Below are positions 11,545 through 31,024 of a stretch of DNA of 64,000 nt, piece after piece. The position numbers were made by a program, and so were the translations under genes. The stretch covers positions 372,001 through 436,000 of the forward strand of contig JAFKEU010000005.1 of assembly GCA_017308475.1 (NCBI GenBank), in the 5' to 3' direction. Under the pieces are notes generated by a model. The model saw nothing but the letters and a program-made list of their open reading frames with translations. It ran no database searches and had not been told where the DNA came from. Position 1 is the first letter of the stretch; every line of letters begins with the position of its first letter. Origin of the DNA: Alphaproteobacteria bacterium. Lineage in GTDB: Bacteria > Pseudomonadota > Alphaproteobacteria > Micropepsales > Micropepsaceae.

Positions 11545-11592
11545 GACTGTCTCGCGGGATCGGATTTGCGCGCCCATCAAAGCAATTCATGC

Positions 11593-14873: not shown

Positions 14874-16874
14874 TCAGGCGGCGCTCACGCAAAAACGGAA
14901 GCGCCGCGAGCCGGGCATGAAATCGGCCGGCTTGCGCGTGTCATCGAGCTCCAGCGCCGAAAGCTGCAGCTGGCAGAACAGGCTTTCGGTTCCGTCCGCG
15001 CGCCGCGCCGGCCGATGGGTGAGAAGCCCCAGAAGCGGTGCGCAGCAGCGGTCAACCTCGACGCGCAGGGCCGCACGGCCATCGCTGATCTCGGCCCAGC
15101 CCTCGGTCATGCCCAGTCCAAAGCTGGACGAAACCAGGAATGATACCGGCGCGCCATGGTCGATCGTCTGTCCGGCCAGCGCGAAGCGCTCGGCCGCGCC
15201 GCCATTGTTGGTGGAGAGCCAAAGCCTCTTAAAGTCGAAGGCATCGGGCAAAAGGGTGAAATGGCCCAGGCGCAGCACGCCCTTGTCCCAGCTGCTCCAG
15301 TTGAACAGAAGGTCGAACTCCACCCGCGGGCTGCCGCCGCAAAACCGCATCCGCTTTTCGATCGTGCCGCGCGGCGTCTGGATGTGCCCTTCCACCAGCA
15401 CATCGCCTGCCGCATTTTCCGCGATGCGTGTGTCCGCCCAGTCCAGGTCTGTGGTTTTGTGTTCGCCGGGCGCTTCCCACACACAGTCGCCGGTGTACCA
15501 GTCGGCCTGCAGCGCGATGTCGCCGAAAAAGCCGTGCGGCAGCCCCCCCAGCACGGGTCGTGCGTGCCCGGAGAAATGCAGGCTCGAAAGCGCAAGACCG
15601 CGGCGCCGGTCCAGCCGCGCCGACAGTGTCGCCGTTTTGATGTCGATATGACGATCCGCGACGGCCGGCGTTGACAGCGGTGCAGGCTTGCCCGCCGCGG
15701 CGATGCCCCAGCGGGCATCGGCCGCCTTCAGGCGTTCGGCAAAGCCGGTCCAGCGCTTCCCGGTCAGATGCGTGCGAAAATCGCTGGCCCACAGATAGCA
15801 AAGTTCTTTCCAGTCGGCCTTGCTCTCATCGGCCGCCATGCCGCGATAGATGCGTTCGCAGGCGGCGTTGACCGCCAGATTGTCCCGTCCCGTCACCGCC
15901 CAGCGCGCCAGATTGTATTTGCGCTGCTTCTTGACCGGCACCGGACAGGCCGCGCTTTCCAGCACAAGCGCCTGGCCGGCGCCCGGCCGGTCCAGAATAT
16001 CCAGCACGCGCGATGGCGCCACGAATGCCGCGCCGTCTTCGCGCACCGCGGCAAAGGCGGCGGCCAGGCGGTCCCATTCCCCGCCGCTGAGTTTTTCCTC
16101 GGTCTTGAAGCGGCCGGGGCGGAAATCGAAAATTTCTGCATCGCTGGCATAAAGACAAAGGGCACGGGCACTTTGCGCGCGCGCCTTGCCGCGAACGAAA
16201 TCACGATAGACGTCCAGGCCTGTGTCGCCATGAGCCAGCCGCTGGAGTTGCTGGAAGGCGGCGGTATTGCTCCACAACAGCGCGATCCGGCGGCCATCGG
16301 GCCCCACGGCGTATTGCGGCAGAAAGGCCGTCTCCCCATGCCATTCGGGATGCTGGCTGGCGGGATTGTCGAAATCCATGATCAGGGCGTCGAATCCGGC
16401 ATCGGCATAAAGCCCCACCAGGCCGCCGGCATAGGCCTGCTCGTTGACCAGGGCAAGGCGGGGACGCATGCCCAAAAGGCGCTGATAGACCTCAAGTCCC
16501 AAACGCAGATTTTCGCGGGTCACCCGCGCGGGCACCAGCGGCCCGATCATCTGGCTGTAGCCCGAACCGATCAGTTCGATTTCGCCCCGCGCTATGGCGG
16601 CGCGCGCCGCTTCGATCCAGGCCGGATCGCGGGCCGAGATTTCCTCCAGCGTATAGCCGCTGATCTCCATGCCCAGCGGGCCGTGTGCCGCCGCCAGCTT
16701 CAGGAGCGGCCAGTAGCAATTGGCGATCATTGCGTCACGGCGCTCTTCCTCGATCGAGGAGAAGGCCAAATTCAGATGAAAGAATGCAAAAACTTGAAAG
16801 GTGGTCGCGCCGGAAGGCCCTCCGCCTTGCTCCGGGTTTCCGGACGCTCCGGGGACGGAGAACGGCGCATTCAT
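14874..16874 (-). CDS. GH57-like glycoside hydrolase family protein
   Basis: A 666-residue protein with an N-terminal GH57-type barrel: FFHLNLAFSSIEEERRDAMI, then LGMEISGYTLEEI, IELIGSGYSQMIGPL and LVNEQAYAGGL. A beta-rich C-terminal half follows (ALSSLHFSGHARPVLGG). GH57 enzymes act on alpha-glucans, but divergent members appear in surface-glycan clusters, where a trimming or transfer role is possible. It is last in the eight-gene minus-strand operon and overlaps the ATP-grasp stop by 4 bases (ATGA). No signal peptide, so it is cytoplasmic. Substrate unknown. Confidence 0.75.
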   Translation of the reverse strand: MNAPFSVPGASGNPEQGGGPSGATTFQVFAFFHLNLAFSSIEEERRDAMIANCYWPLLKLAAAHGPLGMEISGYTLEEISARDPAWIEAARAAIARGEIELIGSGYSQMIGPLVPARVTRENLRLGLEVYQRLLGMRPRLALVNEQAYAGGLVGLYADAGFDALIMDFDNPASQHPEWHGETAFLPQYAVGPDGRRIALLWSNTAAFQQLQRLAHGDTGLDVYRDFVRGKARAQSARALCLYASDAEIFDFRPGRFKTEEKLSGGEWDRLAAAFAAVREDGAAFVAPSRVLDILDRPGAGQALVLESAACPVPVKKQRKYNLARWAVTGRDNLAVNAACERIYRGMAADESKADWKELCYLWASDFRTHLTGKRWTGFAERLKAADARWGIAAAGKPAPLSTPAVADRHIDIKTATLSARLDRRRGLALSSLHFSGHARPVLGGLPHGFFGDIALQADWYTGDCVWEAPGEHKTTDLDWADTRIAENAAGDVLVEGHIQTPRGTIEKRMRFCGGSPRVEFDLLFNWSSWDKGVLRLGHFTLLPDAFDFKRLWLSTNNGGAAERFALAGQTIDHGAPVSFLVSSSFGLGMTEGWAEISDGRAALRVEVDRCCAPLLGLLTHRPARRADGTESLFCQLQLSALELDDTRKPADFMPGSRRFRFCVSAA

Positions 16875-18091
16875 GCCGTGCGGATCCGGATCAGCGCCAA
16901 CGCATCATTGGCCGCCTTCAGCGCGGCGTCGTGGGTGTCGCCGGTGGCCAGCACCATCGCGGCGCTGGGTCGCTTGTCGCCGGCCGGCGGGATTACATCG
17001 CCGGGCCGGGCAGTGACCACGACCTCGGCGATGCCTGGGATCCTGCGCGCGTCCTCCTCGCCCGTCACGCCCATCACCGTGCCGGGTTCGGGAAAGGTAT
17101 AGCGCTGAACCACCGGCATTTGCCGGCGCGGGGTCAGTTCTTCCGGCGAAACCGCCTCGCCCAGCGCCAGGCGAATGGCGGCGCCTATGAAGTCCACACC
17201 GGTGTTGAGCGGTATCTCGCGGGTACAGAAAAAGCCGCCCGACAGGCGCGCCGCCAGCTCGATCACATAGGGCTCGCCATCATGCACCACGATATCGCCC
17301 TTGACCGTGCCGGTCGTCACGCCAAGAGCGGATGCGGCGCGGCCGACCAGGTCCTTGACCTTGTCCTGGATGCCGGCGGGAAGATGACTGGGCAGATCGC
17401 CGCCATTCTCGATGAAGAAGGGCGCATAGCGTTCCAGATATTCGTAATTGCGGTCCGAGAAGCCGGGCGTATAGCACACCCCGTTCATCACGATGCTTTC
17501 GGTCGACACCTGCGGGCCGGGCAGATACTGCTCCACCATCACCCGCTCGCTGGGCGAATGGCTGCGCGCCAGCATGAAGGCCGCGGTCAGGTCGGCCACC
17601 TGGGCGACGCGCTGCACGCCGCGCGAACCGCGCGAATCCACCGGCTTGATCACCAGGTCCTTGCCGCGCTCGATGGCGATGCGCTGCAATTCCTGGGGGG
17701 TGGATACTTCGGCGAACCAGGGAATTGCCACGCCCGCGCTGCGGAAGGCTTTCTTCATCGCCAGCTTGTCGCAAGCCAGTTCCGCCACGTGTACCGGAAT
17801 GCCGGGCAGGCGCAGGCGCTGGGCTACCGTGGCGGCGGTGACCGGCGCATCGGCCGCCACACACAGCACCCCGTCGATCCTGCGGATCTTGCGGCTGTAG
17901 CGTTCTGCGGCAGCCGCCGTCTCGGACGGGCCATAGACATCCGCGATCAGGCAGGAATCGGCAAAGGCGAAGCCGGGCGCGGTGGGATCGCGGTCGGAAA
18001 CGACGACGGTATAGCCCATCTCCTTTGCGCGGCGGGCCGCGTCGGCGGCCTCGATGCCGCCGGAGATGATCAGGAGTGTCTTCTTCTCCAT
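16871..18091 (-). CDS. ATP-grasp ligase (carbamoyl-phosphate synthase-like fold)
   Basis: A 406-residue ATP-grasp protein. The N-terminal part has KTLLIISGGIEAADAARRAKEMG. The ATP-binding region has DLVIKPVDSRGSRGVQRV, and the metal site is seen in PYVIELAARLSGGFF. Such enzymes join a carboxylate to an amine or thiol through an acyl phosphate. In this operon it could acylate an amino sugar or attach an amino acid to a glycan precursor; that is inference. Its start overlaps the SDR stop by one base and its stop overlaps the GH57-like start. Confidence 0.85.
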   Translation of the reverse strand: MEKKTLLIISGGIEAADAARRAKEMGYTVVVSDRDPTAPGFAFADSCLIADVYGPSETAAAAERYSRKIRRIDGVLCVAADAPVTAATVAQRLRLPGIPVHVAELACDKLAMKKAFRSAGVAIPWFAEVSTPQELQRIAIERGKDLVIKPVDSRGSRGVQRVAQVADLTAAFMLARSHSPSERVMVEQYLPGPQVSTESIVMNGVCYTPGFSDRNYEYLERYAPFFIENGGDLPSHLPAGIQDKVKDLVGRAASALGVTTGTVKGDIVVHDGEPYVIELAARLSGGFFCTREIPLNTGVDFIGAAIRLALGEAVSPEELTPRRQMPVVQRYTFPEPGTVMGVTGEEDARRIPGIAEVVVTARPGDVIPPAGDKRPSAAMVLATGDTHDAALKAANDALALIRIRTA

Positions 18092-18846
18092 CAGAAATAA
18101 AGCCCCCCGTTCACGTTCAGCGTCTGCGCCGTGATGTAGCTGGCAGCGTCCGACGAAAGGAATACCACGGCATCGGACACTTCCTCTGGCGCGCCCATGC
18201 GCTTCAGAATGATGGAATCGGCCGCCTTCTGCACGGCGGCGCTGGCCATGCCGGCCGCCGCCATGTCGGAAGCGATCAACCCCGCCGCCACGGTGTTGGA
18301 ACGCACGCCATATTGCGCGCCGAAACGCGCGATCACCTGGGCCAGCGAGATCAGCCCCGCCTTGGAAGCGGCGTAATGGGCGGTACGCGGACCGCCATAC
18401 TGCCCGCTGACGGAGCCGATATGCGTGATGGCGCCGCCGCCCGCGCTTTTCAGCAGCGGCAGGAATGTCTGGGAGACCATGAATGGCCCCTTCAGATTGG
18501 CGTCCAGGATCATGTCCCAGTCGGCATCGCTGATCTGGTCGAAGTCGGCGGGCTTGTTGATCCCCGCATTGTTTACCAGGATGGTGACGGGGCCGAAACT
18601 GCGCGCCTGCTCGGCGGCGTGCTGGACGCTGGCGCGCGATGTCACATCCATGGGCACGGCGTGGGCGCGCCGGCCCAGCGCCTCGATGCGATGGACAATG
18701 TCCTGCGCCTCGCGGTGGCGCTCGCGATAGGTCAGAACCACGTCGGCGCCGGCTTCGGCAAGGCCGACGGCGATGGCGGCGCCGATGCCGCGCGATCCGC
18801 CGGTGACGACGGCAGTCTTTCCGGCAAGCGAGAATCGCGGGTTCAT
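18091..18846 (-). CDS. Short-chain dehydrogenase/reductase
   Basis: A 251-residue classical SDR. The cofactor loop is TGGSRGIGAAIA near residue 16, followed by NNAG (LVNNAGINKPADF) and the catalytic Ser plus Tyr-x-x-x-Lys as GSVSGQYGG and YAASKAG. It resembles FabG-type reductases, but its place between the split transketolase and the ATP-grasp ligase suggests that it reduces or oxidises a sugar intermediate. It is coupled by ATGA overlap to the transketolase gene. Confidence 0.9.
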   Translation of the reverse strand: MNPRFSLAGKTAVVTGGSRGIGAAIAVGLAEAGADVVLTYRERHREAQDIVHRIEALGRRAHAVPMDVTSRASVQHAAEQARSFGPVTILVNNAGINKPADFDQISDADWDMILDANLKGPFMVSQTFLPLLKSAGGGAITHIGSVSGQYGGPRTAHYAASKAGLISLAQVIARFGAQYGVRSNTVAAGLIASDMAAAGMASAAVQKAADSIILKRMGAPEEVSDAVVFLSSDAASYITAQTLNVNGGLYF

Positions 18847-19832
18847 TTGCGTTTCATGACCCGTTTGGCCGCCTCCGCGATATGGGGGGCGGCGATCTCA
18901 TAGTGATGCGCCAATTCCTCGGGTTCGCCCGATGCGCCGAACATGTCCTTCACGCCGACGAACTCGACCGGGCAGGGATGCGTGGCGGCCAGCGCCTCGG
19001 CCACCGCGCCCCCCAGTCCGCCATGAATGTTGTGGTCCTCGGCGGTGACGATGGCGCCGGTCTCGCGCGAACAGCGCGCGACCAGGGCACTGTCGATCGG
19101 CTTGATGGTGGGCATGTTGACAATGCGGGCGGAAATTCCGTCTGCTGCCAGAAGGTCGTGCGCAGCCAGCGCCCGGGCGACTTCGGCGCCGCAGGCGATG
19201 ATGGTCAGGTCGGTGCCGTCCCTCAGCACCTGGCCCTTGCCGATTTCAAACCTGTGATCGTCACCGAACAGGCGCGGCGCGGGGCTGCGGCCGGTGCGCA
19301 TATAGACCGGTCCGTCGAATTCCAGGATCGCGCGGGTGGCCAGCGCCATTTCGGTGGCGTCGGCGGGCGAAATCACCGTCATGCCGGGGATGGCGCGGAA
19401 GGCGGCCAGGTCTTCCAGCGCCTGCGCGCTGCCACCGTCGGGGCCGACATCCAGGCCGGGATGGGAGGCGACGATCTTGGCATTGCGCCGCGCATAGCAT
19501 AGCGACAGGCGGGCCTGTTCGATGGCGCGCAGGCAGAAGACGGCGAAGGTGGTCACCACCGGCACCAGTCCCACGGCGGCCATGCCGCCCGCCGCCGCCA
19601 TCATGTTCTGCTCGGCAATGCCGAACTGCACGAAGCGCTCGGGATGGGATTTGCGAAAATGGTGCACGCCGGTGCCGCCGGCGATGTCGGCGTCCAGCAC
19701 CACCAGCTTGGGAAACTCATCGGCCATGGCCGACAGCGCCTTGCCGAAGGCTTCGCGCAGTGAATCGCCGTTGGAAGCGATAAGGGCAGGCCCCGCCTCA
19801 TGCAGCGAAGCGGTAGGCGAACTAGAGGTCAT
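18843..19832 (-). CDS. Transketolase, C-terminal subunit
   Basis: A 329-residue protein equal to the pyrimidine-binding and C-terminal domains of transketolase. It has the conserved Glu region FVQFGIAEQNMMAAAGGMA, then FAVFCLRAIEQARLSLCY and ASHPGLDVGPDGGSAQALEDLA. Split transketolases move two-carbon ketol units using thiamine diphosphate. The ATG at 19832 has GGAG upstream and overlaps the N-terminal subunit gene by 11 bases, so the two subunits are made together. Its setting in a glycan operon, not with pentose-phosphate genes, suggests a specialised sugar substrate. Confidence 0.92.
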   Translation of the reverse strand: MTSSSPTASLHEAGPALIASNGDSLREAFGKALSAMADEFPKLVVLDADIAGGTGVHHFRKSHPERFVQFGIAEQNMMAAAGGMAAVGLVPVVTTFAVFCLRAIEQARLSLCYARRNAKIVASHPGLDVGPDGGSAQALEDLAAFRAIPGMTVISPADATEMALATRAILEFDGPVYMRTGRSPAPRLFGDDHRFEIGKGQVLRDGTDLTIIACGAEVARALAAHDLLAADGISARIVNMPTIKPIDSALVARCSRETGAIVTAEDHNIHGGLGGAVAEALAATHPCPVEFVGVKDMFGASGEPEELAHHYEIAAPHIAEAAKRVMKRK

Positions 19833-20745
19833 CGAGGAACTCCGCAATCTGGCCCGCGTCGGCGCCCAGCGCCGTCAGGGCTTCCTCCGCCTGGGCGCGG
19901 GTGAACTTCACGCTGCCATGCCAGGCGGGAATGTTTTCCATATAGGGCACGCCCTTGCCCTTGATCGTATGGGCAATGATCAGGGACGGCACCTTGCTCA
20001 ATTCGGCGTTCAGGCCGGTGTTGTGAAAGGCGTCAAGGATGGCGGTGACGTCGTGGCCATCGATTTCCTGCACGTTCCAGCCGAAGGCGCGCCATTTGTC
20101 GGCCAAGGGTTCCAGCCGCATGATGGAATCGTTGCTCGCATCGCTCTGCAGCTTGTTGTAGTCGACCACCGCGGTCAGGCGCGACAGCTCGTGATGGGCC
20201 GCCGACATGGCCGCTTCCCACACTTCGCCTTCCTGCATCTCGCCGTCGCCCAGCAGGCAATAGACGCGCGCCGGATTCTTCTGGATGCGCAGGCCCAGCG
20301 CCATGCCCACCGCGACCGAGATTCCCTGGCCCAGCGAGCCGGTGGACGTTTCCACCCACGGCAGGTCCAGCACATGGGGATGGCCCTGGAAGGGGCTGCC
20401 CAGCTTGCGCAAAGCCAGCGCGGCCCTGGCGTCGCAGAAGCCGAAATGCGCTCCCGTCGCGTACAGCGCCGGCGCACCGTGGCCCTTCGACAGCACGAAA
20501 CGGTCGCGGCTGGGATCGTCGATGCCGCCGGGCCGGACATTCATCTCCGCGCCGTAGAGGCACGCAAAGAGCTCGGCAGACGACATCGCGCCGCCCGGAT
20601 GACCCGAGCCGGCGTGATAGATCGCGGCGATGGAATGCATGCGGATGAAGCGCGCGGCCTGCGCCAGCTTCGGTTCAGTACCCGATGCCGTATCCGTATT
20701 CTGGCCGGCATCGTTGGCCGGTTGGCTTCTGAGCGGCAGGTTCAT
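19822..20745 (-). CDS. Transketolase, N-terminal subunit
   Basis: A 307-residue thiamine diphosphate-binding subunit. It has HSIAAIYHAGSGHPGGAMSSAEL near residue 40, the ThDP and metal motif LLGDGEMQEGEVWEA (GDG-x-N-like), and later IAHTIKGKGVPYMEN. The ATG at 20745 is preceded by GAGGGGG; an ORF extension upstream lacks family similarity. It partners with the overlapping downstream gene to make a full transketolase. Confidence 0.92.
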   Translation of the reverse strand: MNLPLRSQPANDAGQNTDTASGTEPKLAQAARFIRMHSIAAIYHAGSGHPGGAMSSAELFACLYGAEMNVRPGGIDDPSRDRFVLSKGHGAPALYATGAHFGFCDARAALALRKLGSPFQGHPHVLDLPWVETSTGSLGQGISVAVGMALGLRIQKNPARVYCLLGDGEMQEGEVWEAAMSAAHHELSRLTAVVDYNKLQSDASNDSIMRLEPLADKWRAFGWNVQEIDGHDVTAILDAFHNTGLNAELSKVPSLIIAHTIKGKGVPYMENIPAWHGSVKFTRAQAEEALTALGADAGQIAEFLDDL

Positions 20746-20767
20746 GGCCCCCTCTTGGAGTGTGTCG

Positions 20768-21961
20768 TCAGGCCGCGCGGCCAAGGCGGGCACGCCCAAG
20801 CAGGTCGGCATAAAGAATGATCTCAGCCCCCGGCGCGCGGGCGCGCACCTCTGCGGAAATTTCCTCGGCGAAGCCGCGCGACATCACCACCACTACATCG
20901 GCAGTGTCGTCGTTCAGCGCGTCGGGCGCGGCCAGGGCGACGCCGTGGCGTTCCGCCATGTGTTTCTTCAGGTGGACGTCAATCAGGAGCGAAAGCGTCC
21001 CGGGGTCATAGCCCCCCTCGCGCACCAGCATATCGAACAGCCGCCCGGCGCCCCACAACGCGACGCGCTTCGGCTTCAGCGCTTCCAGCTCGCGCGCCAC
21101 CATTTCCAGTGCTGCCAGGTTGCGCGCGCGCGTATGCTGGTAACGGTTCATCAGTGCCATCGCCGCCGCCGATTCGGCCGGGTCGGCGGCAACGGTCTCG
21201 AGCGGTGCACCGGACTTGCGGGCGACGAACAGAAGATTGATCGCATCGGCCGGATCGTTCTGCTCGACGATCTCAAAACCGGCGGCCTCGATCATCCGCG
21301 ATAGGGTGCGGGCCGAAAAGTGGAACAGATGCTTGTCGATGAACCATTCCTCGACGATGTCCTCGCCGCCGATCAGCGCGATGTTGGGTGCGTCGATCAC
21401 CAGCAGCCCGTTCGTCTTCAGCACGCGGGCGTGATCCTTCAGCGCCGCAAAGGGCGCGGCCAGATGTTCGATGGTGTGGCAGGAATGGACGATATCGAAG
21501 CTGGCATCGGCAAAGGTGGTGTGTTCGGTGCGGGCCTGCACCAATTCGGTGCGGGGCATGCCGGCGCAAGACGCCGCGAAACGCTCATCGGGCTCGACCG
21601 CCGTCAGTTGGGCACCGCGCGCGGCCTCCAGAAAGGCGCGCGCAAAACTGCCCCGGTTCGAGCCGACATCCAGCAGCGCAAGATTGCCCGTCAGGTCGGC
21701 GTGGCGCGAGAGGGCGGCCATAGCCGCGCCGGTACGAAAGCCCTTGCCGTAGCGCACATTGCCCCAGTCCGCCCCGCCCGACACCGCAGCGGCATGACGC
21801 TCCCGGGTACGGGCGATGCGCGGCGTCGACTGTACCAGGCCGCAATAACGGCAGACATGGACTTTCAGGCCGCGGGTGGAGCCGTCCGGCAGATAGGAAA
21901 AAGCCAGTTCGTCGCGGCCGCAAAAGTCGCACGGACAATGTTGAAGGGTCTGAGACGACAT
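20768..21961 (-). CDS. SAM methyltransferase with N-terminal zinc-binding motif
   Basis: A 397-residue protein in three parts: a Cys cluster (CPCDFCG and CRYCG in the first 40 residues), a class I methyltransferase fold with LLDVGSNRGSFARAF and HSCHTIEHLAAP, and a C-terminal Rossmann-like domain with ALWGAGRLFDML. This is the layout of sugar C-methyltransferases that act on nucleotide-linked keto sugars (TylC3-like). It probably methylates a sugar in the flagellin glycan. It is 22 bases upstream of the transketolase genes in the same operon. Confidence 0.85.
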   Translation of the reverse strand: MSSQTLQHCPCDFCGRDELAFSYLPDGSTRGLKVHVCRYCGLVQSTPRIARTRERHAAAVSGGADWGNVRYGKGFRTGAAMAALSRHADLTGNLALLDVGSNRGSFARAFLEAARGAQLTAVEPDERFAASCAGMPRTELVQARTEHTTFADASFDIVHSCHTIEHLAAPFAALKDHARVLKTNGLLVIDAPNIALIGGEDIVEEWFIDKHLFHFSARTLSRMIEAAGFEIVEQNDPADAINLLFVARKSGAPLETVAADPAESAAAMALMNRYQHTRARNLAALEMVARELEALKPKRVALWGAGRLFDMLVREGGYDPGTLSLLIDVHLKKHMAERHGVALAAPDALNDDTADVVVVMSRGFAEEISAEVRARAPGAEIILYADLLGRARLGRAA

Positions 21962-21971
21962 GGGGGGACCG

Positions 21972-22011
21972 CCGGAATATTCCGGTAACCATGTTCAGCC
22001 GGACATGGTTA
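21972..22011. promoter_or_regulatory. Two adjacent palindromes in the glycan operon
   Basis: The perfect palindrome CCGGAATATTCCGG (21972-21985) is followed at once by an inverted repeat, TAACCATGT / ACATGGTTA, with an 8-base spacer (21986-22011). They lie between the sulfotransferase stop and the methyltransferase start. TTAACC half-sites at the arm edges also resemble CtrA half-boxes. Either an internal promoter and operator or an RNA hairpin that sets relative expression is possible. Confidence 0.5.
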
Positions 22012-22027
22012 ACGGGGCCTTATCTCT

Positions 22028-22852
22028 CTAGTAATTGACCGCATATTCGGCGCGGTCCGCATAGCCCAGCCGCGCCATCATCGGGCCGGCGGTGGCCTCG
22101 AACCGGGCGCGCTGAAGCGGGGTCAGCAGACGGTCTTCAGGGCGATTGACATTGTGCGGTCGGGCGAAGACGGCGAAATCGCTGTCCTGGTATTCGAGCC
22201 CCAGGAAACGCAACAACTCTCGCACATGTGACGGCGACCGGGTCAGGTCTTCCAGCCGTGCGAACAGTGTTCGTTCCGCCGGCAGCGCGGCCAGGGAGTC
22301 AAGAATCTCGCGGTTGATCTCGGCCCAGTGCCAGCAGATGCGCTGGAACTGGTCGAAGCTCCGAAATGCCTCCGCCATCGGGTCATTCCGGCGCGGCACC
22401 GGCCACCAATAGGGCTTCTCGGGGGGAGGCGGGAATGCGGCGCCGTCGTAGTGGGCCTGCATGACGGCGTTGGCGTGGTCGTCGTAATTCTCGGCACCCA
22501 GCTTGTGAAAATAGGAGCTGGTTACCTTTCGTCCGTCACGCACCAGATGGACGAAGCGCGCGTCGGGATAAAGCGCGGCCAGGTCGGGGATCAGCCAGGA
22601 CAGCTTGTTGGACGAATCGCCCCATAGACGCGCGCGACTGTGGTGGATCGCGGCGCCGAAGGTGTCGCCGATGAGGCCCCGCGTCTGGGCCTCCCCCATC
22701 AGCCCCAGATAGCGCTTCACCGCCAGGGGCTGGGTGATCTGCACCGCATATTCGTGATGCATCTCCACATTCGGCTTGGCTGACAGGGCCTTGTGCAGCA
22801 TGGCTGTACCGCTGCGGCCGGAGGAGACGATGAAAAAGGGTGTCGCGGTCAC
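22028..22852 (-). CDS. Sulfotransferase family protein
   Basis: A 274-residue PAPS-dependent sulfotransferase. The 5'-phosphosulfate loop is SSGRSGT at residues 10-16, and the 3'-phosphate motif is RFVHLVRDGRKVTSSYFHK near 100. The rest is helical, as in bacterial and polysaccharide sulfotransferases. It would transfer sulfate to a sugar hydroxyl or amine, so the glycan may be sulfated. Its ATG overlaps the upstream methyltransferase stop (ATGA). No membrane segment, so it acts in the cytoplasm on a precursor or on flagellin. Confidence 0.9.
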   Translation of the reverse strand: MTATPFFIVSSGRSGTAMLHKALSAKPNVEMHHEYAVQITQPLAVKRYLGLMGEAQTRGLIGDTFGAAIHHSRARLWGDSSNKLSWLIPDLAALYPDARFVHLVRDGRKVTSSYFHKLGAENYDDHANAVMQAHYDGAAFPPPPEKPYWWPVPRRNDPMAEAFRSFDQFQRICWHWAEINREILDSLAALPAERTLFARLEDLTRSPSHVRELLRFLGLEYQDSDFAVFARPHNVNRPEDRLLTPLQRARFEATAGPMMARLGYADRAEYAVNY

Positions 22853-23805
22853 GTTGCTTGCGGCTTCGTCGCGATGATCACCGCCTCGCGGCCGATGCCC
22901 TGCCCGGCCAGTGCGCGATAGAAATTCCGCCGGACCTCCTTCAGTCCCGCCAGCTCCATCGCAAAGTCAAAGCGCTTGCGCCTGTCGTGACAGGCCCGCC
23001 CCAGTGCGGGGTCGTCCGTGTAGTTCTCGCCCATCATCAGGAAGGCTTCCATGGGAAAGCTGGTGGTGCGCTCCTGATCGGCCACGCCCAGCCGGCCCAG
23101 CAGCGCGGCCAGGGAATCGAAATCGAAATAATTCAGATGATGGGGCGGGGCCACCCACCATTCACCGATGCCAAGCGCGCCGCGCGCGGCGATCTGGAAC
23201 GGCGAGAAATCATTGGGAACGCCCACGCACAACACCCCGCCTGGCTCGATCAGTCCGATGGCGCGCGTCAGCACATCAATGGGGTTTGGCACATGCTCCA
23301 GCACATTGGTCAGGTTGACCGCATCGAAGCGGCCCAGCGCGGGGGCGCTTTGCGCATTGAAGAAGTCTTCGGTGACGGCGGCACCCAAAGACCGCGCATG
23401 GGCCGCGGCCTGGCGCGACGGCTCGATGCCGTGTGCTTGCCAACCGCGCGCGATCGCGGTCTTCAGGAAAAAGCCCGGCCCGCATCCGATATCCAGCAGG
23501 CGGCGGCGCCCTGCACCCAGCCGCCGCTCGAACGCTTCCAGCCGGTCGGTCTGTGCCAGAACGAACCAGTCCTGATCCTCGCCGGCATGGGCGATGAAGC
23601 TGGGCTTCTCGTCGGCATAGTAATTCTGGCGATATTCCTCTTCCAGCGCCGCCGGATCGGGCAGCGGCAGCGCATGGCGGAAGCCGCATTCAAAGCAGTC
23701 GATGATGCTGTGGGACCCGGCCCCCGCGATGCGCGGGCCGTTATGCCGGCCGTCCCGCAGGAACTCGGCCTGCGGAAACAGGCGTGGCGAAGATGCTTGG
23801 CTCAT
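22849..23805 (-). CDS. Class I SAM-dependent methyltransferase
   Basis: A 318-residue methyltransferase, first gene of the operon. A Cys pair (CFECGF) lies near residue 40, followed by the SAM motif RRLLDIGCGPGFFLKTAIARGW and the post-motif NLTNVLEHVPNPIDVL. An N- or O-methyltransferase of a sugar is likely. The start at 23805 has a G-run upstream. Divergent from neuB across an 80-base space holding two CtrA-like boxes. Confidence 0.88.
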   Translation of the reverse strand: MSQASSPRLFPQAEFLRDGRHNGPRIAGAGSHSIIDCFECGFRHALPLPDPAALEEEYRQNYYADEKPSFIAHAGEDQDWFVLAQTDRLEAFERRLGAGRRRLLDIGCGPGFFLKTAIARGWQAHGIEPSRQAAAHARSLGAAVTEDFFNAQSAPALGRFDAVNLTNVLEHVPNPIDVLTRAIGLIEPGGVLCVGVPNDFSPFQIAARGALGIGEWWVAPPHHLNYFDFDSLAALLGRLGVADQERTTSFPMEAFLMMGENYTDDPALGRACHDRRKRFDFAMELAGLKEVRRNFYRALAGQGIGREAVIIATKPQAT

Positions 23806-23845
23806 CAACAGTCCCCCCGCTGCCGGCTCCCTTGGCCGCATCGCG

Positions 23846-23885: not shown

Positions 23886-24755
23886 ATGGACCAGCCGATC
23901 TTCATCGCAGAAGCCTCATCGAACCACGGCCGCGACCTGGACCGCGCGCGCGCCTTTGTCGATGCCGCGGCCGATGCCGGTTGCGATGCGGTCAAATTCC
24001 AGTTGTTCAGGATCGACCGGATGTTTTCGCCCGAGATCCTGCGCCAGAGCCCCGGGCACAGGGCCCGGGCGGAATGGGAATTGCCGCTTTCCCACCTGGC
24101 GCCGCTGGCGAAGCATTGTTCGGAACGGAACATCCGGTTTTCCTGCACGCCCTTCTACCTGGAGGCGGTGGCGGAGCTGGCGCCCTTCGTCGACTTCTAC
24201 AAAGTGGCGTCCTATGAGCTGCTGGTCACGGACCTGCTGAAAGCCTGCGCCGCGACCGGAAAGCCCGTCGTCCTGTCAACCGGCATGGCCACGTTGGATG
24301 AAATTGCTGCCGCCGCGGCAACATTGAAAGACGCCGGCGCCGCCGACATCACGCTGCTGCATTGCGTGTCGGCCTATCCCACCCCGGCTTCAGAGGCCAA
24401 CCTGTCGGCCATCGCCGCCATCCGCGAGGCGACCGGCCTGAAGGTGGGATGGTCCGACCACACCCGGCGCCCCGCGGTGATCGAGCGGGCGGTGCATCGC
24501 TGGAATGCCGCGGCGGTGGAATTCCATCTCGACCTTGACGGCAAGGGTGCCGAATACGCCGCCGGCCATTGCTGGCTGCCGGACGAGATCGCTCCCGTCA
24601 TCGCCCGCATCCGCGAAGCGGGCGTGGCCGATGGCAGCGGCTTCAAGGGTCCGCAGCCCTCCGAATTGTCCGACCGCGACTGGCGCGCCGATCCATCCGA
24701 CGGCATGCGCCCGCTGAAGCATGTACGCCTGTCGTACAGGGGCGAAGCAGCCTGA
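23886..24755 (+). CDS. NeuB/PseI-type nonulosonate synthase lacking the SAF domain
   Basis: A 289-residue barrel enzyme of the N-acetylneuraminate synthase family, which condenses phosphoenolpyruvate with an N-acyl hexose. Motifs include FIAEASSNHGRDLDRARAFVDAA, DAVKFQLFRIDRMFS, FYKVASYELLVTDLL, VLSTGMATLDEI and LLHCVSAYPTP. Typical members are about 340-350 residues with a C-terminal antifreeze-like SAF domain that covers the active site. Here the protein stops shortly after the barrel. It overlaps the next gene by one base (TGATG), so the two are co-translated. Confidence 0.88.
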   Translation: MDQPIFIAEASSNHGRDLDRARAFVDAAADAGCDAVKFQLFRIDRMFSPEILRQSPGHRARAEWELPLSHLAPLAKHCSERNIRFSCTPFYLEAVAELAPFVDFYKVASYELLVTDLLKACAATGKPVVLSTGMATLDEIAAAAATLKDAGAADITLLHCVSAYPTPASEANLSAIAAIREATGLKVGWSDHTRRPAVIERAVHRWNAAAVEFHLDLDGKGAEYAAGHCWLPDEIAPVIARIREAGVADGSGFKGPQPSELSDRDWRADPSDGMRPLKHVRLSYRGEAA

Positions 24756-26578
24756 TGGAAATGCGCGAACACATCCGGGTCGTCGCGGTTATCCAGGCCC
24801 GCATGGGCTCCACCCGCCTTCCCGGCAAGGTGCTGAAACCCATCGCCGGAAAGCCGCTTCTCTGGCACATCGTTCATCGCCTCAGGGCTTGTCACCTGAT
24901 CGAAGAGATTGCCGTCGCCACCACCGTCAATCCGGCGGACGAGGCGATCGTGGAATGGTGCAACGCCGAAGGCGTCGCGGTGGTGCGCGGCTCAGAGGAA
25001 GACGTGCTGGCCCGCTATGCGGCCGCCGCCGAAAAGCTGGACGCGGACATCATCGTGCGTGTTTCATCCGATGCGCCTTTCATCGATGCCGGCTTCGTCG
25101 ACCACCTGATCGCCACCCTGATCGAGCAGGACGGCGATTACGTGCTGCTGGAAGAGGGCGCTGACTGCGCCCATGAGGGCGTCGATCCCTTCAGCCGCCG
25201 CGCCCTGGACAAGCTGATGATGGATGCCGCCACCGATCCGGCCGCGCGCGAGCATGTCACCGGCTATTTCAAGCTGCATCCCGACTTCGTAAAGATCGTG
25301 CGCGCCGCCCCATATCCGCCGCTGGCCGGAAAGGGCGGACGCCTGACCATCGACACGCCTGACGACCTGGCATTCATCGAAGCGGTGCATGCCCGGCTGG
25401 CGGCCAGGGCGGGCGAAGCCTCGCTCGCCGACCTGCTGCTGCTGCTGGAGCGCGAGCCGGACCTCACGCGCATCAATGCCCACGTGAAACAGAAGCCCAT
25501 CGCGGGGGCCACCGGCCAGACGGCGGGCGGCGTGGCCCTGATCCGTTGCGATGGCGGTGGTGCTTTCGGCTATGGCCATGTCAAACGCATGGTGTCGCTG
25601 GCCCGATCCTTGCGCGACCAGGAAGGCATCGGCGCGGTCTTTGCGCTGAACGGGACCAGGGATGCGGCCGCCCCGATCCGCCGCGCCGGCTTTCAGGTAA
25701 CCATGCTGCATGGTGCCAGCGACCTGGAGACGCTGATCGATACCATCGGCCCCGACATTCTGCTGCTGGATGGCCGCGAAGGCCCCACCCGTGCCGAACT
25801 GGAAAAACTCAAACGCGGCATTCCCGTCACCGCCGTGATCGACGATGCCGGCGAACGGCGCCTGGCCGCCGACTATGCCTATTACCCGCCGGTTCCCCAG
25901 GCCCATGCGCTGGATTGGACGGGCACCAACACCCTGCCGCGCATCGGCTGGCAGTGGACGCTGACCGGTCTCAACCCCAATGCCGCGCCGGGACCGCAGC
26001 TGAAACCGGCGCTGCCCAAGTCGGGGCGCCCCACCGTGCTGGTGGCGATGGGCGGCAGCGATCCCCTGGGGCTCACCCTGCGTTGCGCCAGGGCGCTGGC
26101 GCCTCTGGATACCGTCTTTCGCGTGCGCTTCGTGATCGGCGCGGGGATGAAGGACGGCAAGAAGATCGCCGAAGGCCTGGTCAAGCTGAAAAGCAATTAC
26201 GAGACGGTGGAAGGCGCCAATGATCTTTCCATCGAATATGCCAATGCCGACCTGGCGCTCTGCGCCTTCGGCGTCACGGCCTATGAGCTGGCGTCCACCG
26301 GCACGCCGGCCATCTATCTGGGTATTTCCGAGGACCATGCCATCTCTGCGGGCGCCTTCGCAGAAGCTGGCATGGGCATCTCGCTGGGCCTGGCCGCCAG
26401 GCTCAGCGACGCCGATATCCTGCGGACGGTGAGCTGGCTGTTGCAAAAGCCGCTGGCCCGGCGCGAAATGCGCGCTGCCGGTCTTTCGCTGATCGATGGG
26501 CAGGGCGCTTCGCGCATCGCCGCCGATCTCGCCGCGGCGCTGACCAGCGCCCGCACGCCGCTCAAGACCGCGCTTTAG
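24755..26578 (+). CDS. Fusion: SpsF-like cytidylyltransferase and PseG-like hydrolase
   Basis: A 607-residue two-domain protein. Residues 1 to about 240 are SpsF-like nucleotidyltransferase: VVAVIQARMGSTRLPGKVLKP, VSSDAPFID and LTIDTPDDLAF. Residues from about 260 are PseG-like: IRCDGGGAFGYGHVKRMVSLA, then ILLLDGREG, VLVAMGGSDPLGLTL and LCAFGVTAYELASTGTP. PseG removes UDP from the altrose precursor of pseudaminic acid, and the cytidylyltransferase activates the finished acid, so the fusion joins steps on either side of NeuB. Substrate identity is inferred. Its stop overlaps the convergent TPR-glycosyltransferase by 4 bases. Confidence 0.85.
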   Translation: MEMREHIRVVAVIQARMGSTRLPGKVLKPIAGKPLLWHIVHRLRACHLIEEIAVATTVNPADEAIVEWCNAEGVAVVRGSEEDVLARYAAAAEKLDADIIVRVSSDAPFIDAGFVDHLIATLIEQDGDYVLLEEGADCAHEGVDPFSRRALDKLMMDAATDPAAREHVTGYFKLHPDFVKIVRAAPYPPLAGKGGRLTIDTPDDLAFIEAVHARLAARAGEASLADLLLLLEREPDLTRINAHVKQKPIAGATGQTAGGVALIRCDGGGAFGYGHVKRMVSLARSLRDQEGIGAVFALNGTRDAAAPIRRAGFQVTMLHGASDLETLIDTIGPDILLLDGREGPTRAELEKLKRGIPVTAVIDDAGERRLAADYAYYPPVPQAHALDWTGTNTLPRIGWQWTLTGLNPNAAPGPQLKPALPKSGRPTVLVAMGGSDPLGLTLRCARALAPLDTVFRVRFVIGAGMKDGKKIAEGLVKLKSNYETVEGANDLSIEYANADLALCAFGVTAYELASTGTPAIYLGISEDHAISAGAFAEAGMGISLGLAARLSDADILRTVSWLLQKPLARREMRAAGLSLIDGQGASRIAADLAAALTSARTPLKTAL

Positions 26579-28068
26579 GACAAGGCTGCAAGCACTTTGC
26601 GGAAGGCCGACGGCCAGTCGCCGCGCGCCTTCGGCATCGCCAGGCTGCAGGCCGGCGCGAAAGGCTCGTGCGCCTGGCCCAGCGCGGTCCAGCTGGTGTT
26701 GTACAGCACCTTGAAGGTGGGCGTTCCCACACCGGCGCAAAGCCACGACACCGCGGTGGGCGCGCTGACCACCGCATCAAGAGCGGACAGCAGCGCGGCA
26801 CTGCGATCCAGTTCGTTCTTCTGGTCGATGCCCTGCGGGACGATGATCCGGCGTCTGCTGATCTGTTCCAGCGCGGCGATTTCCTCCTGCGTGGCATCGT
26901 ACTGCACGCTGACGATCGTGCCCTGCAGATCGCGCAGGAAAGCGCCCCATTCTTCCAGCGGCGCATATTGCAGGCTGCGATGGCCGCCCGACTTTCCGCT
27001 GCGCCAGCATATGCCGATCGTCCTGCCACCGCGGCCGAACACCTGTTTCCAGCGGGCGGCCTCTGCAGCATCGGGCGCAAGGAAGACATGGGGATCGGGG
27101 AAACGGTCCAGCGACCCGCGCAGATAGCGCGGCAGGGTGCCCATCAGGGTCCAGGCGTTGGCACCACCCGCGCCTTTCAGCCAGCCATAATCGGCGCGCG
27201 GATGCCCACCCGCCGACGCGATCTCGGCGGGGTGCACGCACACAGAGGGGAATGAGCGGGCGAACAGCGAAACCAGCCGCGGCTCGCATTCCAGCACCAC
27301 GCTGCCGCCTTCCCCGGTGGCACGCGCGGCAAGTTCGGAAATCAGGCTGGCGAACAGGATCTGGTCGCCGACGCCCTGTTCGGCCCGCACCAGAAGCCGT
27401 TTCCTGCGCAGCGGCTCGCCCGTCCACGGCGCCAGGCGCAGGTCCGCCGCAGGTACCTTGCCGGCAATGTCGATGCGGGCGGCATAATCGCGCCAGCCTT
27501 CCTTCAGCGCGCCCGTCAGCAGATGCAGGACGGCGCGATTCAGTCGGATTTGGGGATTTTTGGGATCATGATGGATGGCCGAATCGTACAGTGTTCGCGC
27601 TTCCTCCCATTCGCCTCGGTCGCACAGAAGATCGGCCAGGTTCGACAGCGCGGGCGCATAGTTCGGACGCGCCGCCAGCGCGGCCCGGTAATGGCTCTCG
27701 GCCCGTCCATTGTCGCCCATCTCGCGGAAGGCCGATCCCAGGGTGAGGTTGATCTCGGGGCTCTGCGGAACTTGCGCCAGCGCCGGCTCCAGCAGGGCGA
27801 TGGCGGCCGCAAACTGGCCGTTCGCCCGCATCAGATTGGCCAGGTTGACCATGGCTTCCAGCCGGAGCGGATCGATGGCCAGCACCTGGCGGAAGAATTG
27901 TTCGGCAGGGCCGGCCATGCCCAATGCGCCGGCGGTGTTGCCCAGCGCGAAAAGGACCCTTGTGTCCTGCGGGTCCTGGGCCAGCGCCTGCTCATACTGG
28001 CCGATGGCCTCCAGATGCCGCCCTTCGGACGAAAGTTTCAGACCCGTGGCATAGGCGGTGCTTGGCAT
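26575..28068 (-). CDS. Second TPR-glycosyltransferase, probable flagellin glycosylation
   Basis: A 497-residue protein with the same plan as the one at 9793-11544: TPR repeats in residues 1-190 (GRHLEAIGQYEQALAQDPQD, SPEINLTLGSAFREMGDNGRAE) and a glycosyltransferase-like half with RLLVRAEQGVGDQILFASLISEL, IGICWRSGKSGGHRS and LSALDAVVSAPTAVSWLCAGVG. EQGxGDxxxFA and the SAPTA segment are shared by both copies. Two such enzymes could modify different flagellins or add successive sugars. No clear ribosome binding site; a perfect CtrA-type box lies 23 bases upstream. Confidence 0.8.
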   Translation of the reverse strand: MPSTAYATGLKLSSEGRHLEAIGQYEQALAQDPQDTRVLFALGNTAGALGMAGPAEQFFRQVLAIDPLRLEAMVNLANLMRANGQFAAAIALLEPALAQVPQSPEINLTLGSAFREMGDNGRAESHYRAALAARPNYAPALSNLADLLCDRGEWEEARTLYDSAIHHDPKNPQIRLNRAVLHLLTGALKEGWRDYAARIDIAGKVPAADLRLAPWTGEPLRRKRLLVRAEQGVGDQILFASLISELAARATGEGGSVVLECEPRLVSLFARSFPSVCVHPAEIASAGGHPRADYGWLKGAGGANAWTLMGTLPRYLRGSLDRFPDPHVFLAPDAAEAARWKQVFGRGGRTIGICWRSGKSGGHRSLQYAPLEEWGAFLRDLQGTIVSVQYDATQEEIAALEQISRRRIIVPQGIDQKNELDRSAALLSALDAVVSAPTAVSWLCAGVGTPTFKVLYNTSWTALGQAHEPFAPACSLAMPKARGDWPSAFRKVLAALS

Positions 28069-28165: not shown

Positions 28166-31024
28166 ATGTCGGGCATTGGCATTTCCGGGCTTGATCCTTC
28201 GACGCTGCTGGGCTTCTACCAGGCCCAGCTGGCGACCTCACCCACCGCCATCGCGGCAGGCGCCGCCCAGGCTGCGTCCCTTGCCGCCGCCCAGAACAAG
28301 GGCGCCACCGCCAACGACAATCCACCCTGGAACACGCCCAACACAAATGATGCGCACCAGGATGCGCAGGTGCTGTCGACCACCGATTTCCTCGACACGT
28401 CCAAGGTGCCGCTGAGCGCGGGCGCGACCACCGACTCCAAGATGGAGCAGGACAATCAGAAGCTGTTCGCCCTCTACAGCGCTGTGAACACGCTGGCCTA
28501 CCTGGCCAAGATGGCCCAGCGCCCCACCGCCACCGGCGGCCAGCTTGCGGGCCTCAACACCCGCTTCCAGGACGGCATGTCCCAGCTGCAGCAGTATCTG
28601 GCCGGGTCGAGCTTCAACAATTTCAACCTCCAGGCGGCCAAGCCGTCCGACCAGGTGACGTCCACGGCCTCGATCCCATTCAGCGACTACACCTACCAGA
28701 CCAAGAAATTCGTCACCAACGCCCATATCGGCGATCCGCTGCCGGGTGTCTCGGCCTCCGACAGCTTCACCATCGGCATCAAGAAGGGGGGGGTGACCAC
28801 CAATGTGGCGATCGACCTCAGCCAGGTGCAGGGCTCGCTGACGTTGACCAACATCGTCGGCTACATCAACGGCCAGCTGGCCGCGAACGGCTTTTCCACC
28901 CGGTTTCAGAAAACGGTGACGGGCGATACGCCCACCAGTTCGGCCAACGCCACCTATGGCATGCAGATCACGCCCGGCGGCGTGGAACAGGTCACGCTGT
29001 CGGCCGCCTCCACGCCCTCGCTCTACATGGTGGGCAGTTCGGGTACTGCCACCGAAACCCAGACCGTCACCAATGCCGCCACCTCGGCCACCACCACCTC
29101 GGCCGCTGACCAGGCCGGCCGCCTGACCAAGATTTCGGGCCTGTCCGGCACGCCGTCAGGCATCTTCAGCGTCAATCAGCAGGCCTCCAGCGGCATCACC
29201 AATGCGCAGGCCACGGTGGTGGACGGCAGCGGCAATATCTATGTCGTGGGCAACGCCACCGGCGACTTCGGCAACCAGATCAACCAGGGCAGCCAGGACG
29301 TCTATCTCACAAAATACGACTCTGCCGGCAATGTGGTGTGGCAGAATCTTCTTGGCAGCGCCGGCAGCGCCAACGGCTACGGCCTGGCGCTCGATCCCAG
29401 CGGCGGGGTGGTGGTGACCGGCAGTTCGACCGCCGATCTCACGACGACTTCCGTCGCCGACGGCAACAATGACTCTTTCGTCGCCCGCTATGCCGCGGAC
29501 GGAACGCAGAGCTGGATCAAGCAGGTCCAGACCCTGGCTACCAACCAGTCCAATACCGTCAGCGTCGATGCCAGCGGCAATGTCTATATCGGCGGTTCGG
29601 TCTCGGGCGGGGTGATCGGCGCCGGCCAGACCGGCTCGGGCAAGGCCGATGCCTTCCTGGCCAAATACGACTCCAAGGGCAATCTCCTGGCCGAGAACCA
29701 GTTCGGCACCTCCGCCAACGATTCGGTCGCGGCCACCGCCACCGGCAGCGACGGCAGCCTCTATGTCGCCTCGGTCCAGAACGGCCACGCCATCGTGGCG
29801 AAATATGCGGGCGGCGACATCACCAGCGCCCCCACCTGGACCCAGGACCTGGGCGATCTGTCGGCGGCGGGTGCCATCGGCGGGCTGGCCGTGTCCAATG
29901 GCCAGGTCTATGTCTCCGGTACCACCACGAACCAGAACCTGACCGCGGGCGGACAGGCCACGATAGCCAACGCGGCAAGCGGGGGCGTTGATTCCTTCGT
30001 CTTCGCGCTCACCGATAACGGCACCAGCGCGGCGGCCGGCCACGTCACCTACGTGGGCACCTCCGGCACCGACCAGGGCGGCGGGCTGAGCGTGGCAAGC
30101 GACGGCACCATCTATATGACGGGCAGCACCACCGGCACCTTCGCCGGCCAGACCCGCAACATCCAGAACACCACCAATGCCTTCGCCACCGCGATCAACG
30201 CCGATGGCAGCATCGGCTGGACACGGCAATATGGCGGCCAGGACGGCATCTCATCCGGAACCGGCGTCGCCATCGACCCCAACGGTTCCAGCGTGCTGGA
30301 TGCGCTGGGCCTGCCACGCGGCACCATCAACCTCAACCAGTCGGTGGACCTGACGACCCAGACCACGCTGCGGGCAGGCGACACGTTCCAGATCCAGATT
30401 CAGGGCACGGCGGCGCGGACCGCCACCATCACCATCGACCAGGGCGAGACCTTCGATTCACTGGTGACCAAGATCAACGGCCAGCTTGGCCAAGTGGGCA
30501 AGGCGTCGATCAACTATACCGGCGGGGCCGAGAACCTGAAGCTCCAGGTCAACGCCGGCTACACCATCAACCTGGTTGCGGGATCGGGCGATTTCGATGC
30601 CCTCTCGCGGCTGGGCATTCCGGCGGGTGTGCTGACCGCGCCATCCACGAACAGCAGCAGCACCAACACCACCACGACGTCGTCGGCTATCACGCCCACT
30701 TACGGGCTGGGCTTTTCGGGCACGCTGGACATCTCGACCAAGATGGGCGCCGACCTGGCGCGGTCCCAGCTTCTGACCGTGCTCTCGTCCATCCAGAGTA
30801 CCTATCAGACCACCAATACGCCAAAGCCGACCAGCACCACACACACCGGCAACACCAGCGGCACGGCCAGCGCCTATCAGGCCTCGCAGCTGGCCAGCTA
30901 CAATCTGGCACTGGGGCTGATGAACACCGATCCCAACAACGCCGTTGCCAATATCCAGCAGATCGTCAGCAGCGGCGGATCGGGCGGGAGCAGCCTGGCC
31001 GGGCTGCTGGGCGGGTTGGTCTAG
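28166..31024 (+). CDS. FlaEY-like flagellar protein with beta-propeller repeats
   Basis: A 952-residue, Ser/Thr/Gly-rich protein with few charged residues and no signal peptide. Residues 1-170 are helical and include SSFNNFNLQAA, close to the flagellin FNNFNLVDG motif. Residues about 330-700 hold SBBP-type propeller repeats with D-x-S-G-N-x-Y-V-x-G signatures (VDGSGNIYVVGNATGDFG, VDASGNVYIGGSVSGG). The C-terminus is helical again after a Ser/Thr linker. Caulobacter FlaEY, from the flagellin region, has similar size and repeats; its precise role is not settled. It could be an exported filament-associated protein. No clear ribosome binding site. Confidence 0.65.
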   Translation: MSGIGISGLDPSTLLGFYQAQLATSPTAIAAGAAQAASLAAAQNKGATANDNPPWNTPNTNDAHQDAQVLSTTDFLDTSKVPLSAGATTDSKMEQDNQKLFALYSAVNTLAYLAKMAQRPTATGGQLAGLNTRFQDGMSQLQQYLAGSSFNNFNLQAAKPSDQVTSTASIPFSDYTYQTKKFVTNAHIGDPLPGVSASDSFTIGIKKGGVTTNVAIDLSQVQGSLTLTNIVGYINGQLAANGFSTRFQKTVTGDTPTSSANATYGMQITPGGVEQVTLSAASTPSLYMVGSSGTATETQTVTNAATSATTTSAADQAGRLTKISGLSGTPSGIFSVNQQASSGITNAQATVVDGSGNIYVVGNATGDFGNQINQGSQDVYLTKYDSAGNVVWQNLLGSAGSANGYGLALDPSGGVVVTGSSTADLTTTSVADGNNDSFVARYAADGTQSWIKQVQTLATNQSNTVSVDASGNVYIGGSVSGGVIGAGQTGSGKADAFLAKYDSKGNLLAENQFGTSANDSVAATATGSDGSLYVASVQNGHAIVAKYAGGDITSAPTWTQDLGDLSAAGAIGGLAVSNGQVYVSGTTTNQNLTAGGQATIANAASGGVDSFVFALTDNGTSAAAGHVTYVGTSGTDQGGGLSVASDGTIYMTGSTTGTFAGQTRNIQNTTNAFATAINADGSIGWTRQYGGQDGISSGTGVAIDPNGSSVLDALGLPRGTINLNQSVDLTTQTTLRAGDTFQIQIQGTAARTATITIDQGETFDSLVTKINGQLGQVGKASINYTGGAENLKLQVNAGYTINLVAGSGDFDALSRLGIPAGVLTAPSTNSSSTNTTTTSSAITPTYGLGFSGTLDISTKMGADLARSQLLTVLSSIQSTYQTTNTPKPTSTTHTGNTSGTASAYQASQLASYNLALGLMNTDPNNAVANIQQIVSSGGSGGSSLAGLLGGLV

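Follow-up and report, generated by a model that had tools for sequence, protein, structure and literature searches.

Helicobacter pylori 26695 carries a protein, HP0326, whose parts we take to be PseF and PseG, in that order. A single-base insertion joined the two genes, which are separate in other strains, with a 7-nt overlap; only a few fused orthologues were noted (PMC3046158). The pseudaminic acid pathway runs in the order PseB, PseC, PseH, PseG, PseI, PseF (PMC7591256). In Caulobacter crescentus, the cytidylyltransferase FlmC shows no homology to PseF, FlmD is a divergent PseG with 22% identity to Campylobacter jejuni PseG, the FlmC and FlmD gene numbers are adjacent, and FlmG is a 596-aa protein with TPR and glycosyltransferase parts (PMC7591256). 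In Bacillus subtilis, SpsE, SpsF and SpsG serve a legionaminic acid pathway: synthesis depends on spsG, and transfer to the spore on spsF (PMC7439481). Finally, the sfmABCDE cluster of Shewanella oneidensis encodes a NeuB-like protein of 290 aa (SfmA), a TPP enzyme, an SDR, a methyltransferase and an ATP-grasp protein; PseB and PseC are present, clear orthologues of PseH, PseG, PseI and PseF were reported lacking, and the flagellin glycan comprises a mono-acetyl Pse-like unit of 274 Da and a unit of 236-264 Da (PMC3765264).

Here we describe a gene in a 64,000-nt stretch of alphaproteobacterial DNA (the window) that, like HP0326, joins in one polypeptide a predicted cytidylyltransferase and a predicted UDP-sugar hydrolase, both of the pseudaminic acid pathway. 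HP0326 results from an insertion in a single strain, whereas the fusion described here is fixed in a genus, occurs in several phyla and has an N-terminal half of the SpsF type rather than PseF. As described, B. subtilis SpsE-SpsF-SpsG likewise place a NeuB-type synthase, a cytidylyltransferase and a hydrolase in one pathway, but SpsF and SpsG are separate proteins and the sugar is legionaminic acid. Caulobacter FlmC and FlmD, by their description, are separate counterparts of the two halves in an alphaproteobacterial flagellin pathway with FlmA, FlmB, NeuB and FlmG; they differ in being two proteins, in a pseudaminic acid pathway that includes a PseH-like FlmH.

Results

A single open reading frame encodes both halves

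The fusion gene occupies positions 24755-26578 of the forward strand and its translation is stop-free over 607 residues. The stop codon TGA of the upstream NeuB gene (24753-24755) and the fusion ATG at 24755 form the sequence TGATG, a 1-base overlap with a shared A. An alternative in-frame TTG at 24569 would give a protein of 669 aa. Alignments with homologues begin at about residue 1-8 of the 607 and extend no further upstream, which makes 24755 the likely start. Of 37 genus genomes, 28 carry the fusion, split over contig ends in two of them; it also occurs in several other lineages, indicating that it is no assembly artefact. Chance or a frameshift artefact as its origin was ruled out by conservation across the genus. 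An AlphaFold model built from 35 fused homologues (mean pLDDT 88.8, pTM 0.75) has two domains, one cytidylyltransferase-like and one with a GT-B fold, joined by a low-confidence linker (25499-25525, forward strand; residues 249-257, with pLDDT under 50 at 250-255). The spacing from L237 to R264 is 22 residues in 26 of the 35 homologues. The original prediction, that one 607-residue protein holds both enzymes, was thus borne out by the single reading frame, the match of each half to its own family (PF02348 and TIGR03590), the two-domain model and the recurrence of the fusion in the genus.

We considered whether the two genes had been joined by accident and one half is now decaying, as with HP0326, the published precedent (PMC3046158). 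Relaxed-looking N-terminal halves in three relatives (L103, L078 and L070) fit this idea. However, the fusion has been kept across the genus and in several phyla, all signature residues are present in both halves of the window protein, and both are under purifying selection (dN/dS of about 0.10 and 0.26-0.29 relative to the nearest relatives). An accidental, decaying fusion is therefore highly improbable.

The N-terminal half resembles SpsF rather than PseF

The N-terminal domain (24773-25498, forward strand; about residues 6-248) matches Pfam CTP_transf_3 (PF02348) over residues 10-211 with an E-value of 5e-32 and 111.9 bits, above the gathering score of 22.6 bits. It is not PseF: TIGR03584 matched residues 10-77 only, with 27.3 bits against a cutoff of 205.7, and Kdo-type models scored about 76 bits, above the 27 of PseF. 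Its nucleotide loop reads ARMGSTRLPGK and contains the RxxSTRLPGK pattern. Seven residues are invariant among the 35 fused proteins (R16, R21, K25, R78, D106, D200 and D204), including the metal-type aspartates D106, D200 and D204. In the AlphaFold model, residues 6-248 superpose on the Leptospira cytidylyltransferase 6oew with a Z-score of 28.0 over 236 of 239 residues. By sequence, this half is an SpsF-type CMP-sugar cytidylyltransferase, with its activity predicted.

The C-terminal half belongs to a PseG-like subfamily

The C-terminal domain (25526-26554, forward strand; residues 258-600) has one significant family, NCBIfam PseG (TIGR03590), with an E-value of 2e-24. Its 86.5 bits fall below the curated cutoff of 153.55 bits, which a fused Geobacter homologue (149.0 bits) and an unfused Methanoregula homologue (143.6 bits) approach. 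A PDB search with this half as a single sequence returned no PseG, which was recovered by profile only. The profile alignment places H275 of its GxGHxxR loop opposite H17 of C. jejuni PseG (3hbm), which we take to be the general base. The loop and the GT-B fold are shared with the C. jejuni enzyme (3hbm/3hbn); the latter, by contrast, is a stand-alone protein with 17% identity to the C-terminal half. Invariant residues among the 35 fused proteins are R264, D266, H275, R278, D364, W399, W401, D436 and E511.

The original prediction would have failed had profile searches placed this half in an unrelated glycosyltransferase family, and this did not occur. The low PseG score and the structural comparisons nevertheless raise the alternative that it is a GT-B transferase or another UDP-sugar enzyme, MurG-like or of the epimerase type, instead of a hydrolase. 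Residues 259-596 superpose on MurG (3s2u, Z-score 28.6) and on UDP-GlcNAc 2-epimerases (about 26), as compared to 25.0 for UDP-bound C. jejuni PseG (3hbn) over 272 of 282 residues. MurG and the 2-epimerases share the GT-B fold, so the fold alone cannot decide between hydrolase, transferase and epimerase. By contrast, neither a MurG (TIGR01133) nor an epimerase profile matched the half at E-values up to 1, and the Geobacter relative that lies near the PseG cutoff scored only 49 bits against MurG. In addition, separate candidates for the flagellin transferase lie nearby, and loci with PseB, PseC and NeuB had no other hydrolase that we could see. We consider a transferase or epimerase quite unlikely and retain the hydrolase reading.

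Within this reading, we interpret the half, from its sequence, as a distinct PseG-like subfamily with the signatures YPPVPQ, GWxW, FGVTAYE and DH. The motifs YPPVPQ, GWEW and FGVTAYE are common to fused and unfused members and absent from the canonical PseG of genome G008; the family's DH pair falls beyond the end of that protein, which is cut at a contig end. As FGVTA[YC]EL was among the search patterns, its invariance is partly a selection effect, while GWEW and YPPVPQ were not patterns. This canonical PseG (G008:C52:1-846, L140; 281.8 bits) lies on a 4-kb contig in one genus genome that also carries the fusion. The sole PseG-like gene in the genome of the window is the fusion itself.

NeuB co-occurs with the fusion, and PseB and PseC are encoded in the genome

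PseB (513 bits, over cutoff) and PseC (419 bits against a cutoff of 423.5) are the products of adjoining genes on another contig; a pathway lacking a UDP-sugar source was dropped from consideration once they turned up. The two genes lie near the end of contig C15 (L064:8711-11900), beside a KidO-like aldo/keto reductase gene, and aldo/keto reductase-like genes are also present in the distant pathway loci L120 and L121. The genome of the window had no PseF over cutoff, and no genus genome searched had a PseH over cutoff. The setting expected of a PseG-like UDP-sugar hydrolase in the broad sense, namely PseB, PseC and NeuB with no other PseG, was found here. Across phyla, distant loci with fused or unfused enzymes have the recurring order PseB-PseC-NeuB-SpsF-(...)-SpsG. 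In the unfused loci of Methanoregula and Nitrospinota, aminotransferase and aldo/keto reductase genes lie between SpsF and SpsG; the aminotransferase is class III by Pfam in Methanoregula and the aldo/keto reductase was called from its start sequence.

Among 23 genus genomes, all 15 with the fusion have NeuB, and the 8 without it lack NeuB as well. Together with the PseB-PseC-NeuB-SpsFG loci of many phyla, this co-occurrence supports the placement of the fusion and NeuB in one pathway, and the SpsF-type and PseG-like character of the halves fits steps after and before NeuB, as the original prediction held. The distance between PseB and the fusion is no more than about 10 kb in G004, G007, G010, G013, G021 and G049; in G016, PseB sits with NeuB.

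Collectively, these data argue that the fusion probably catalyses two steps of a pseudaminic-acid-type pathway of flagellin glycosylation, with substrates, reactions and acceptor that we infer. PseB and PseC would make a sugar of the UDP-4-amino-4,6-dideoxy-L-AltNAc type, from which the C-terminal domain of the fusion would then remove UDP. The released hexose would be condensed with PEP by the separate NeuB, and the N-terminal domain would activate the resulting nonulosonic acid with CTP to a CMP-sugar for use by an FlmG-type flagellin transferase. By analogy, the knock-out phenotypes of B. subtilis SpsG and SpsF fit roles in hydrolysis and CMP-activation (PMC7439481). Several observations count against this assignment: of the 15 genomes with the fusion, 11 have a PseB over cutoff, and G005, G008, G012 and G020 (the last 98% complete) do not; three of the eight fusion-less genomes, which also lack NeuB, have PseB; the C-terminal half lies well under the PseG cutoff; and MurG scores higher in fold.

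A conserved cassette adjoins the fusion near flagellar genes

On the reverse strand, positions 14874-23841 hold a cassette encoding a GH57-like protein, an ATP-grasp protein, an SDR, transketolase C and N subunits, a methyltransferase, a sulfotransferase and a second methyltransferase. Most members of the genus keep it next to the fusion, and parts of it are likewise conserved there in other phyla. A 595-aa protein with TPR matches only (9793-11580, reverse strand) is encoded beside FlbT, FlaF and two flagellin genes; its architecture and position make it a FlmG-like candidate flagellin glycosyltransferase. A second TPR protein, of 497 aa (26575-28068, reverse strand), is convergent with the fusion and adjacent to it in most relatives. 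Positions 28166-31024 encode a 952-aa protein, presumably FlaEY-like, that is conserved between this TPR protein and flgN/flgJ/flgI. In L103:361-5665, L074:7554-12203 and L142:6665-18164, the fusion and the TPR protein are retained and the NeuB cassette has been exchanged or lies elsewhere. It is replaced by a canonical pse locus or by a longer NeuB with another ATP-grasp protein, or is itself found on another contig together with PseB/PseC and an IlvB-like TPP enzyme.

In gene content only, the cassette resembles the Shewanella sfm cluster: a short NeuB, a TPP enzyme, an SDR, a methyltransferase and an ATP-grasp protein near flagellin genes, with PseB and PseC in the genome. It differs in that no fusion was reported in Shewanella and the window has split transketolase subunits as opposed to the IlvB-like SfmB; among relatives, G016 and Geobacter L113 do have an IlvB-like gene. 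The divergence from PseG and the missing PseH hint that the substrate lacks the usual 4-N-acetyl group, and the sugar cleaved by the hydrolase half may have a non-acetylated 4-amino group. The missing PseH and the sfmABCDE-like cassette likewise suggest, by analogy, that the product is a Pse whose amine is free or unusually acylated, and the ATP-grasp enzyme may acylate the free 4-amine. It is conceivable, though we hold it only tentatively, that the fusion belongs to a distinct sfm-type pathway found across phyla. The hydrolase would act there on the non-4-N-acetylated PseC product, NeuB and the cytidylyltransferase half would yield CMP-Pse5Ac with a free 7-amine, and the neighbouring ATP-grasp protein, TPP enzyme, SDR and methyltransferases would build and attach a nitrogen-free acid.

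The NeuB partner is usually adjacent and can be exchanged

The NeuB gene (23886-24755, forward strand) encodes a 289-aa synthase-family protein and is the only NeuB gene of its genome. PF03102 is the sole Pfam match; the C-terminal SAF domain of canonical NeuB/PseI is absent. A similar NeuB accompanies PseB, PseC, SpsF and SpsG across phyla, the absence of SAF having been checked in Geobacter L113 alone.

The original prediction had described the fusion as directly coupled to the NeuB gene and had suggested channelling around the synthase. Direct coupling is the usual state, as in the window: 17 of the 20 genus-level loci have NeuB directly upstream, as do 13 of the 14 distant loci with a fusion. 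It is not invariant. Channelling would have the product of the hydrolase half pass to a docked NeuB and on to the cytidylyltransferase half. The two halves do flank the NeuB step, and both the immediate adjacency and the almost constant linker length are in line with it. However, adjacency by itself already predicts operon fusion, and in Methanoregula, Nitrospinota, Phycisphaerales and others the same clusters encode unfused forms. Moreover, close relatives have changed the partner: L074 and L103 have a SAF-containing NeuB (35-39% identity), and in G016 (81% identity) NeuB sits on another contig. As the partner is exchangeable and unfused forms exist, the data do not call for a channel adapted to one particular NeuB, and the suggestion of channelling found no support here. 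We regard a fusion that also channels as unlikely; plain operon fusion with 1:1 co-expression is the simplest account.

Branch lengths in relatives with a second cytidylyltransferase

In G010, locus L103 carries PseC, PseB, PseF and PseI beside the fusion, each of them scoring over cutoff, together with a PseH-like protein. Apart from the C-terminal half of the fusion, no PseG was found in this genome, although the assembly is 92% complete and a PseG may have been missed. Since PseF is present, the N-terminal half, if redundant, is expected to evolve faster. The terminal branch of L103 measured 0.84 for the N-terminal and 0.37 for the C-terminal half, an N/C ratio of 2.25 against a median of 0.52. 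This pattern is suggestive and agrees with the roles assigned to the halves. High ratios were also found in L078 and L070. L070 has no PseF, and L101 and L074 have PseF-like genes but no high ratios, such that relaxation of the N-terminal half in the presence of a second cytidylyltransferase is only suggestive. L103 is placed differently in the trees of the two halves, and recombination may contribute to its N-terminal branch. The fusions at L070:5804-7642 and L078:9203-11020 have no NeuB cassette nearby and have long N-terminal branches; the nucleotide loop of L070 is altered to ARMGCARLPGK.

The fusion is found in several lineages

A GTDB-wide scan with the C-terminal half identified 75 loci. 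Fused reading frames occur in Rhizomicrobium and its kin, Geobacter, other Desulfuromonadales, Deferrisomatales, Desulfobacteraceae and one actinobacterial MAG; in Anaerolineae, Phycisphaerales, Nitrospinota, Methanoregula and others the two proteins are separate. Another alphaproteobacterial family has a fusion homologue at 39% identity. Among 398 genomes sampled across the phylum, SpsF-like matches were mostly stand-alone. On a tree of 68 C-terminal domains, the fused state required 4 changes (shuffled mean 14.7), with only one forced by starred branches. Independent origins are thus unsupported, and a single old fusion that was spread or inherited suffices.

Discussion

The fusion represents a known enzyme pair in a variant form that is widespread and fixed; it is no new kind of system. 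Most likely it arose by the joining of neighbouring operon genes, mainly fixing their 1:1 co-expression. It also offers a test object for whether joining the steps that flank the synthase brings a kinetic benefit.

Our analysis assigns concrete enzymes to hydrolysis and CMP-activation in a flagellin glycosylation pathway that extends from alphaproteobacteria to Methanoregula. Standard profiles miss both steps, with the C-terminal half under the PseG cutoff and no PseF. Gene content ties the pathway to the Shewanella sfm cluster, in which the PseG, PseF and PseH steps were reported lacking. If the sfm-type pathway is correct, SpsF-SpsG homologues would fill the PseF and PseG gaps of Shewanella-type systems.
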